DNA of 64,000 bases from Desulforapulum autotrophicum. Its GTDB lineage: Bacteria; Desulfobacterota; Desulfobacteria; Desulfobacterales; Desulfolunaceae. The stretch lies in assembly GCA_020723285.1 (NCBI GenBank), contig DYJE01000026.1:1-64000 (forward strand), written 5' to 3'. The notes under the pieces were generated by a model. That model saw only the letters and a list, made by a program, of their open reading frames with translations, did no database searches and was not told the DNA's origin. A program made the position numbers and the translations under genes. Shown one piece after another: positions 1 through 15,270 of the stretch. Numbering within the stretch: position 1 is the first letter of the stretch; each line of letters starts with the position of its first letter.

Positions 1-35
1 TGTCCTTTGTTGAGCTCCTGACTTTTTACATGGGC

Positions 36-163
36 ATCAACATCCAACATCGAATGAAGGAAAGCTCCATTTTTATAGGCTGAATATGCAGAAGGGTATC
101 TTGCCATGTGGCCATGGGGATCCTGCAACCCATTCACCATTCGATGTTGTATGTTCGATGTTC
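36..163 (+). repeat. Dispersed ~140-bp TCGATGTT repeat, copy A
   Basis: This is copy A of a repeat that recurs at 1764-2038, 2898-3037 and, inverted, 15134-15270. It begins with CAACATCCAACATCGAATG and ends with CATTCGATGTT-type sequence, so the ends are roughly inverted. Similarity to copy C continues past the end (AAAAAACCTGC then TTAGGATAA) and covers the stop codon of abiEii. The bases just before it (20-44, GACTTTTTAC then GGCATCAACATC) resemble the right end of the MITE-like element at 1785-1936, so copy A may once have carried the same insertion. Confidence 0.75.
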
Positions 164-177
164 AAAAAAACCTGCCA

Positions 178-1091: not shown

Positions 1092-1694
1092 TCAATCCTC
1101 CAGACAGTCACAGAGAAGCTGGATGATTTTTTTTCGATAAAGTCCGGATAGAATGTTTAAAAGAGCTTTATCAAGCCGCATCACAGAGTCCTGATCCATT
1201 CTTAAATCATCGTACAGAAGTTCATTTAAGGCGGCCATGGTCTTGATGTCTTTAAATTTTGAAAGCGTATCGCAGACCGCTTTTTCCGGTGAAGCGATCA
1301 AAAAGCCTTCTCCATTCTCATCCACTCGATGGATACCATAAGGATAAACACGTGGATGGATATAACGGTAAAGGAACAATCCAACGGGTGTCTTGAATTG
1401 TTTGTTTTTATTTTTATTGAAACAGGCCGATGTGATGGCCTGAACCCGTTCCGGAATCATACCGTAATACGACAGGGCCGATTCAAAGGAAATATAAGAT
1501 GGCCCATATATGATGTTGGCAAGGGTCTTTGTTGAGTACCCGCTATGATCACCCGATAGATAAAGACCCCGTCTGACTTTGATAAGCTCACCTTTTTTGA
1601 TCATCGTGGTCAGCTTTGATCGGGGGGAGGCATACCCTTTAAGGCTATCCATAATCCCCATGTAATCCTGGTAGGGTTGTTGGGTGGTTATCAT
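1092..1694 (-). CDS. abiEi: AbiEi-family antitoxin / autorepressor
   Basis: The product (200 aa) is the partner antitoxin. The N-terminal part has the winged-helix pattern typical of AbiEi (TMIKKGELIKVRRGLYL). The middle contains the conserved tract YISFESALSYYGMIPE and the EKAVCDTL motif of the AbiEi antitoxin domain. In known systems AbiEi represses its own operon and neutralises AbiEii without a stable complex; that is family knowledge. An upstream ATG at 1727 is in frame but lies inside the palindrome at 1702-1740 and has no ribosome-binding site. The ATG at 1694 has CTGGAG ten bases upstream, so it is used here. It is followed at 18-bp spacing by abiEii. Confidence 0.88.
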   Translation of the reverse strand: MITTQQPYQDYMGIMDSLKGYASPRSKLTTMIKKGELIKVRRGLYLSGDHSGYSTKTLANIIYGPSYISFESALSYYGMIPERVQAITSACFNKNKNKQFKTPVGLFLYRYIHPRVYPYGIHRVDENGEGFLIASPEKAVCDTLSKFKDIKTMAALNELLYDDLRMDQDSVMRLDKALLNILSGLYRKKIIQLLCDCLED

Positions 1695-1701
1695 TGAATT
1701 T

Positions 1702-1740
1702 TTCTCCAGTAAGTACGAAATTTTCATACTTTCTGGAGAA
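1702..1740. promoter_or_regulatory. Inverted-repeat operator upstream of abiEi
   Basis: Two 19-base arms (1702-1720 and 1722-1740) are inverted repeats matching at 17 of 19 positions; the outer arm reads TTCTCCAG and its mirror CTGGAGAA. It lies immediately upstream of the chosen abiEi start. AbiEi proteins are known to autorepress by binding inverted repeats at their promoter, so this is the likely operator. The DNA pattern is directly visible; the binding is inferred. Confidence 0.7.
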
Positions 1741-1763
1741 TGTCAATGGTTATTGATTACGAC

Positions 1764-2038
1764 GAACATCGAACGCCCAACATCGATGGCGTCGTAAAAA
1801 GTCCCATATGCGGCGTTATAGTGTTTGGCCAGACACTCGACATACTATATGTATGCCGTAGCAAGTGGCCAAACACTATGCCTTGCCTCTGGGCCTTTTT
1901 CCATAGCCATCGGGCGACTTTTTACGAGTCCATCAACATCCAACATCGAATGGAGGGAAACTCCATTTATAACTATTGAATTTTATGAAGATGTTCTTCC
2001 CATGCGGCTATGGAGATCCTGCAACCCATCCACCATTA
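1764..2038 (+). repeat. TCGATGTT repeat, copy B, interrupted by a MITE-like element
   Basis: The left part (1764-1784, ending GCCCAACATC) and the right part (from 1937, AACATCCAACATCGAATGG) together match copy C at 2898. They are separated by the element at 1785-1936. The right part runs on through the shared tract GGAGATCCTGCAACCCATCC. Copies A and B lie in the same orientation on either side of the abiE pair. Confidence 0.75.
1785..1936 (+). mobile_element. MITE-like element, 152 bp, copy 1
   Basis: A non-coding element with near-perfect terminal inverted repeats: GATGGCGTCGTAAAAAGTC at the left and the complement of GATGGACTCGTAAAAAGTC at the right. It is flanked by the 6-bp direct repeat AACATC (1779-1784 and 1937-1942). 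The undisturbed sequence in repeat copy C has AACATC once, which is the expected empty site. A second copy sits at 14270-14419 in the opposite orientation. No transposase is encoded, so it would depend on one elsewhere. Confidence 0.85.
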
Positions 2039-2833: not shown

Positions 2834-2897
2834 GTTAAGAATATCGTCGGGGTGTCACCATCCGTTTTGAACGGGGAATGGTTGAACGGGAATGATT

Positions 2898-3037
2898 GAA
2901 CGTCGAACATCGAACGCCCAACATCCAACATCGAATGAAGGAAAACTCCATTTTTATAGGCTGAATATGCAGAAGGGTATCTTGCCATGCGGCCATGGGG
3001 ATCCTGCAACCCATTCACCATTCGATGTTCGATGTTT
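2898..3037 (+). repeat. TCGATGTT repeat, copy C (uninterrupted)
   Basis: A complete copy beginning GAACGTCGAACATCGAACG and ending TTCGATGTTCGATGTTT. It carries GCCCAACATCCAACATCG without the MITE-like insertion and so documents the empty site for copy B. The interior agrees closely with copy A. It lies ~125 bp upstream of the ATPase gene. Confidence 0.75.
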
Positions 3038-3161
3038 AAAAAAAACCTGCAATTAGGATAACCCGCCTTTTTATTTATTAAATTATGTTATGAGTTGACT
3101 TTGATCATTATCCTGAGTAAATATACTCAATACAATGACTAAATTTACACGGAGCCGTGAC

Positions 3162-14251: not shown

Positions 14252-14269
14252 CTCTCCACGAACAATCTT

Positions 14270-14419
14270 GATGGACTCGTAAAAAGTCGCCCGATGGCTA
14301 TGGAAAAAGGCCCAGAGGCAAGGCATCGTGTTTGGCCAGGCGCGAAGGCATACATGTAGTATGTCGAGTGTCTGGCCAAACACTATAACGCCGCATATGG
14401 GACTTTTTACGACGCCATC
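14270..14419 (-). mobile_element. MITE-like element, 150 bp, copy 2
   Basis: Same element as 1785-1936 but inverted. The ends are GATGGACTCGTAAAAAGTC and the complement of GATGGCGTCGTAAAAAGTC. A 6-bp direct repeat AATCTT flanks it (14264-14269 and 14420-14425). The interior carries its own inverted repeat around GTGTTTGGCCAG. It sits directly after the DUF169 stop codon. Confidence 0.85.
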
Positions 14420-14458
14420 AATCTTGAAAGATATATCTGACAATCATGAAGAGGGTGC

Positions 14459-15091: not shown

Positions 15092-15133
15092 TATCCGGTG
15101 GGGTTTCAGCAAATAGAATGATGGGAGTTTTTT

Positions 15134-15270
15134 AACATCGAACATCGAACACGCAACATCGAATGGTGAATGGGTTGCAGGTTCACCATTGCCGCATGGA
15201 AAGAGCTTACTCTTATATTTAATAATTTAAAATGGAATCAGCCTTCATTCGATGTTGGGCTTTCGATGTT
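15134..15270 (-). repeat. TCGATGTT repeat, copy D (inverted, diverged interior)
   Basis: Read on the minus strand it has the same ends as copies A-C (AACATCGAA, then CCCAACATCGAATGAAGG, and later CAACCCATTCACCATTCG). About 45 interior bases differ and are AT-rich. The 3' end of the minus-strand gene at 15245-15811 lies inside it. Confidence 0.7.

Follow-up and report, generated by a model that had tools for sequence, protein, structure and literature searches.

A 150-bp MITE of Desulforapulum autotrophicum and its candidate IS1182-like partner

Element, ends and empty site in the analysed window

The window analysed here is a 64,000 nt stretch of the Desulforapulum autotrophicum contig DYJE01000026.1. 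It contains two copies of a 150 bp miniature element, several copies of a dispersed repeat and one end of a larger insertion sequence (IS), arranged as follows.

1-38: right end of the larger IS, which is presumed to be autonomous and is cut by the start of the contig
39-44: AACATC adjoining the IS right end; its position in repeat copy A corresponds to the MITE target in copy B
~39-175, plus strand: dispersed repeat copy A, 92 % identical to copy C, carrying the larger IS end
178-1095 and 1092-1727, minus strand: a pair of overlapping ORFs, similar on visual inspection to toxin-antitoxin genes of the AbiEii/AbiEi type; MITE copy 1 is ~60 bp upstream
1752-2037, plus strand: dispersed repeat copy B, split by MITE copy 1
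1779-1784: left target-site duplication of MITE copy 1, AACATC
1785-1934, plus strand: MITE copy 1, 150 bp, an imperfect palindrome without a gene of its own
1785-1803, plus strand: left terminal inverted repeat of MITE copy 1, GATGGCGTCGTAAAAAGTC
1916-1934, minus strand: right terminal inverted repeat of MITE copy 1, GATGGACTCGTAAAAAGTC
1935-1940: right target-site duplication of MITE copy 1, AACATC
2891-3050, plus strand: dispersed repeat copy C, which is the empty site and has the target AACATC at 2920-2925
14264-14269: left target-site duplication of MITE copy 2, AATCTT
14270-14419, minus strand: MITE copy 2, 95 % identical to copy 1
14420-14425: right target-site duplication of MITE copy 2, AATCTT
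15128-15270, minus strand: further dispersed repeat copy

We applied the term MITE to elements shorter than ~600 bp that lack a transposase gene, and the 150 bp element qualifies. The original prediction had placed copy 1, with 19 bp inverted ends, at 1785-1936 between AACATC repeats and copy 2 at 14270-14419 between AATCTT repeats. Copy 2 and the start and flanks of copy 1 stand as described, as do the 19 bp ends, which are imperfect and differ at two positions; copy 1 finishes at 1934, however, two bases of the right duplication having been counted as part of the element. Folded as single-stranded DNA, the element scored far better than shuffled sequences (z = -7.4). Its interior is a palindrome of ~127 bp with imperfect inner hairpins, and on one side only there is an extra 23 bp unit in which the end motif recurs, an arrangement that relatives in the same order have also kept. 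The end motif GATGNNNNNGTAAAAAGTC was found five times in the window, compared with 0.03 matches expected from shuffles. Four of these matches are the ends of the two MITE copies, whilst the fifth (20-38, minus strand), previously overlooked, is the end of the second, larger element.

The dispersed repeat is ~140 bp long and rich in AACATC/GATGTT, its copies being 72-92 % alike. When the flanks of MITE copy 1 were joined with a single AACATC, the resulting sequence GAACGCCCAACATCCAACATCGAATG was identical to repeat copy C (around 2908-2937), in agreement with the earlier view of copy C as the state before insertion. That view had assumed one AACATC at the empty site; the repeat in fact holds the motif twice in tandem with a 7 bp period, so that empty copy C has two and filled copy B three. 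Despite this tandem arrangement the duplication at copy 1 is 6 bp, and the 7 bp alternative first considered for it does not apply. The same AACATC position is thus occupied by the IS in copy A, by the MITE in copy B and by neither in copy C.

Copies across the source genome and ends of the larger element

A search of the genome yielded at least 30 copies of the MITE. Twenty-five were complete, with 89-100 % identity to copy 1, one was internally deleted to 110 bp with both ends kept, and a few more were truncated or deleted; around 17 additional copy ends were located at contig ends. Each of the 26 assembled copies with both ends preserved (the 25 complete copies and the deleted one) was flanked by an exact target duplication, of 6 bp in 24 copies and 7 bp in 2, compared with agreement in 28 of 650 control pairings of left and right flanks from different copies. 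Targets were rich in A and T, most of them fitting AnnnnT, and many lay within the AACATC/GATGTT-rich dispersed repeat, a frequent landing site in this genome for both the MITE and the larger IS. Three copies were identical to one another at different sites, which points to recent movement as originally proposed. Copies without duplications or with larger common flanks, which would have spoken against a mobile element, were not encountered among the assembled copies.

The larger element was represented by at least nine left and at least six right ends in the genome, all of them broken at contig ends. The nine left-end contig ends start like the MITE, with GATGGACTCGTAAAAAGT, and then run on into AGAATTTCATAACAACATG, which is not MITE sequence; their first 18 bp are identical to the MITE right end. 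The right ends of the IS in the source genome read GATGCCCATGTAAAAAGTC. Six contig ends carry the right-end sequence GATGCCCATGTAAAAAGTCAGGAGCTCAACAAAGGACATA, these being positions 1-38 of the window and five other contig ends of the genome. Two pairs of left and right ends share uncommon targets (GAAGTT in one and TATGTT/AACATA in the other), as would be seen at the two sides of single IS insertions. The sequence common to MITE and IS is limited to ~18 bp at each end, so simple internal deletion of the IS ends found here does not account for the MITE.

No match to the partner transposase protein described below was obtained in the source-genome assembly, in which IS copies stop at contig ends and many short contigs read N. 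The original statement that the window contains no transposase accordingly holds as far as tested, although the first 38 bp of the window are the right end of the IS presumed to be autonomous. We infer that the IS of the source genome is intact and active.

Complete insertion sequences in related genomes and the candidate transposase

Among the loci listed by a pattern scan for the end motif, two loci of one genome had a left end followed by promoter-like sequence and an ATG. Searching with the corresponding end of G001 uncovered two complete ISs in genome G110, each of 1,879 bp with one ORF of 536 aa, with termini of GATGG[TC]CTCGTAAAAAG on both sides and exact 6 bp duplications of AAAATT and AACTTT. 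A third, of 1,887 bp with the duplication AATTTT, was identified in G008, and its transposase was 52 % identical to that of G110. Both genomes belong to the same order and the termini of their complete ISs match those of the MITE. The original prediction had anticipated a transposase between ends starting GATGG with 6 bp duplications, and matching IS ends as support for a MITE; the complete ISs of G110 and G008 answer to the former, and the 18 bp match of the source-genome IS ends to the latter. The partner transposase had no match in several relatives with many MITEs of this kind, among them G076 (one contig).

The partner transposase is of the DDE type, ~530 aa long and encoded by a single ORF per IS. 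It matched DUF772, DDE_Tnp_1_6 and DDE_Tnp_1 above the Pfam cut-offs, and aligned to the IS1182 model NF033551 over residues 41-520 of 536, with scores of 167.4 bits (G110) and 152.7 bits (G008) that do not reach the curated cut-off of 270. Residues D152, D356 and E480 were invariant in three transposase sequences and, judged by position and motif, probably constitute the DDE triad. No solved structure matched the transposase by sequence. On a plasmid of Microvirga (Alphaproteobacteria), a 37 % identical transposase was present between ends GACGGGGCGGTAAAAAGT, in which the end core GTAAAAAGT is kept, indicating that the end motif has stayed associated with this line of transposases. This relative has no duplication, and its flanks form an inverted repeat, placing it within a palindrome. 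We describe the partner as a putative divergent, IS1182-like IS, a deliberately loose label given that its transposase scores below the curated cut-off and that the usual target behaviour was not observed.

Several other candidates were discarded. The flanks of fetched loci encoding ISNCY_2 (NF033594) or DDE_Tnp_1 (PF01609) transposases in relatives held no such end pairs. An apparent IS left-end match in G020:C53 was due to chance. In G055 and G041, the unpaired ends first considered as ISs belonged to other MITEs or stood singly. Among viral contigs there was one match, attributable to chance, and no transposase. Separately, at locus L139 (G000:C83) an AAA ATPase comes after an IS481-like integrase, a combination reminiscent of Tn5053/Tn552-type transposition pairs.

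The ends, duplications, empty site and copy number of the MITE, the IS ends of the source genome and the complete ISs with their transposase in relatives make up the sequence-level basis for interpretation. The 150 bp element is very probably a MITE whose termini are recognized by the DDE transposase of a 1.9 kb IS with the same ends, giving duplications of 6-7 bp. The common ends and duplications, together with the complete IS relatives, suggest that it was mobilized in trans by an IS1182-like transposase. Under this model, the DDE transposase encoded by the 1.9 kb IS would bind the MITE termini (consensus GATGRNNTCGTAAAAAGT) and move the MITE in trans, through either cut-and-paste or a copy step. 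Insertion would proceed through a staggered cut of 6 bp, sometimes 7 bp, in an AT-rich target, which host repair would convert into the flanking duplication.

Other origins for the element were weighed against the same evidence. As a short, palindromic, multi-copy dispersed repeat with imperfect inner hairpins, it resembles the REP/REPIN-type palindromes spread by RAYT (Y1 HUH) transposases. REPINs insert without target duplication, however, whereas here a duplication flanked 26 of 26 copies and ISs with a DDE-type transposase have the same ends, making a REPIN origin extremely improbable. The element could alternatively be a MITE of another, unrelated IS, with the ends of the IS1182-like element matching by chance or having been recruited. 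In keeping with this, only ~18 bp are common per end and the transposase lacks a match in the source assembly. Nevertheless, complete ISs of two genomes combine the same ends with a 6 bp duplication and an AT-rich target, the GTAAAAAGT core persists in the distant Microvirga relative, and the PF01609 and ISNCY_2 loci examined in relatives had no end pairs of this kind, such that we consider an unrelated source unlikely.

Related elements across the order, and the deletions or mutations seen in some copies, might instead suggest immobile relics of an ancient, vertically inherited family. This is opposed by copies that are identical although they occupy different sites, by duplications that are intact in every assembled copy and by an empty-site match that is unmutated at the junction, and we regard relic status as improbable. 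A MITE served in trans by the same-ended IS accordingly remains our preferred reading.

An order-wide family and comparison with known systems

The genome-wide pattern scan for the end motif returned at least 119 loci, and the matches listed were mostly labelled Desulfobacteraceae, Desulfobacterales or Deltaproteobacteria. Among these, ~70 had a partner end and a 6-7 bp duplication, exact in most. Nearly all partner ends were 65-202 bp away, with end-to-end distances clustering near 65, 100, 151, 177 and 190 bp; one or two of the pairings over longer distances are questionable. On visual inspection, the unpaired matches among the loci listed adjoined ordinary host genes. Elements with such ends are widespread in Desulfobacterales genomes. 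Many of the payloads between the ends were completely different, and some included familiar types of dispersed hairpin. For example, a 116 bp element at L070:672-787 (G000:C32) has the same ends around another payload (hairpin GTAGGTTGGGCTAACGCC...), and a 64 bp near-perfect hairpin at L184:3954-4017 (G055), with AAAATT on each side, consists almost only of the two ends and is close to a minimal element. At L116, L117, L188, L205 and L306, the end motif adjoins or encloses TCATTCCSGCGAAAGCSGGAATCC-type dispersed repeats, as if these had been captured by the transposon.

A tentative and somewhat doubtful extension is that the partner represents a separate IS lineage near IS1182, one that would have given up duplication-free insertion at hairpins and now duplicates 6-7 bp of AT-rich target. 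Such an IS would need only ~18 bp of end sequence, and might for that reason have wrapped many unrelated hairpins and other dispersed repeats; the outcome would be MITEs across the order that differ in payload but have a single end motif. The wider family is suited to studying the capture and dispersal of short hairpins by an IS with a short end motif. With its ends, duplication size, empty site and candidate transposase, a previously unassigned repeat becomes a defined MITE/IS pair, which accounts for many contig breaks in these assemblies and could help to annotate many Desulfobacterales genomes.

The pair is a well-supported addition to an already known kind of system. Like members of the IS1182 family (NF033551), the partner combines DUF772 and DDE_Tnp_1_6 in one ORF within ~1.9 kb; it differs in scoring 167 and 153 bits against the curated 270, and in making exact 6 bp duplications (three IS copies) rather than having the hairpin targets, or the variable or missing duplications, described for some members. 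ISNCY-group elements of the ISDol1 type are ~1.6-1.9 kb long, and the partner transposase is weakly and partially similar to model NF033593, at 67 bits far below the cut-off of 325. IS1272, of the IS1182 family, makes no duplication and replaces hairpin targets (PMC5678879), behaviour that the Microvirga plasmid relative recalls in lacking a duplication and having flanks that form an inverted repeat. ISPse1 makes a 4 bp duplication (PMC3281130). The element shares with bacterial MITEs such as MITEAba12 (PMC6382973) a short geneless structure, inverted ends, duplications, multiple copies and ends that match an IS; it differs from MITEAba12 in its ends and its partner IS. Compared with bacterial MITEs generally, the family described here displays very many payloads under one end motif across the order, and an extra 23 bp end unit on one side.
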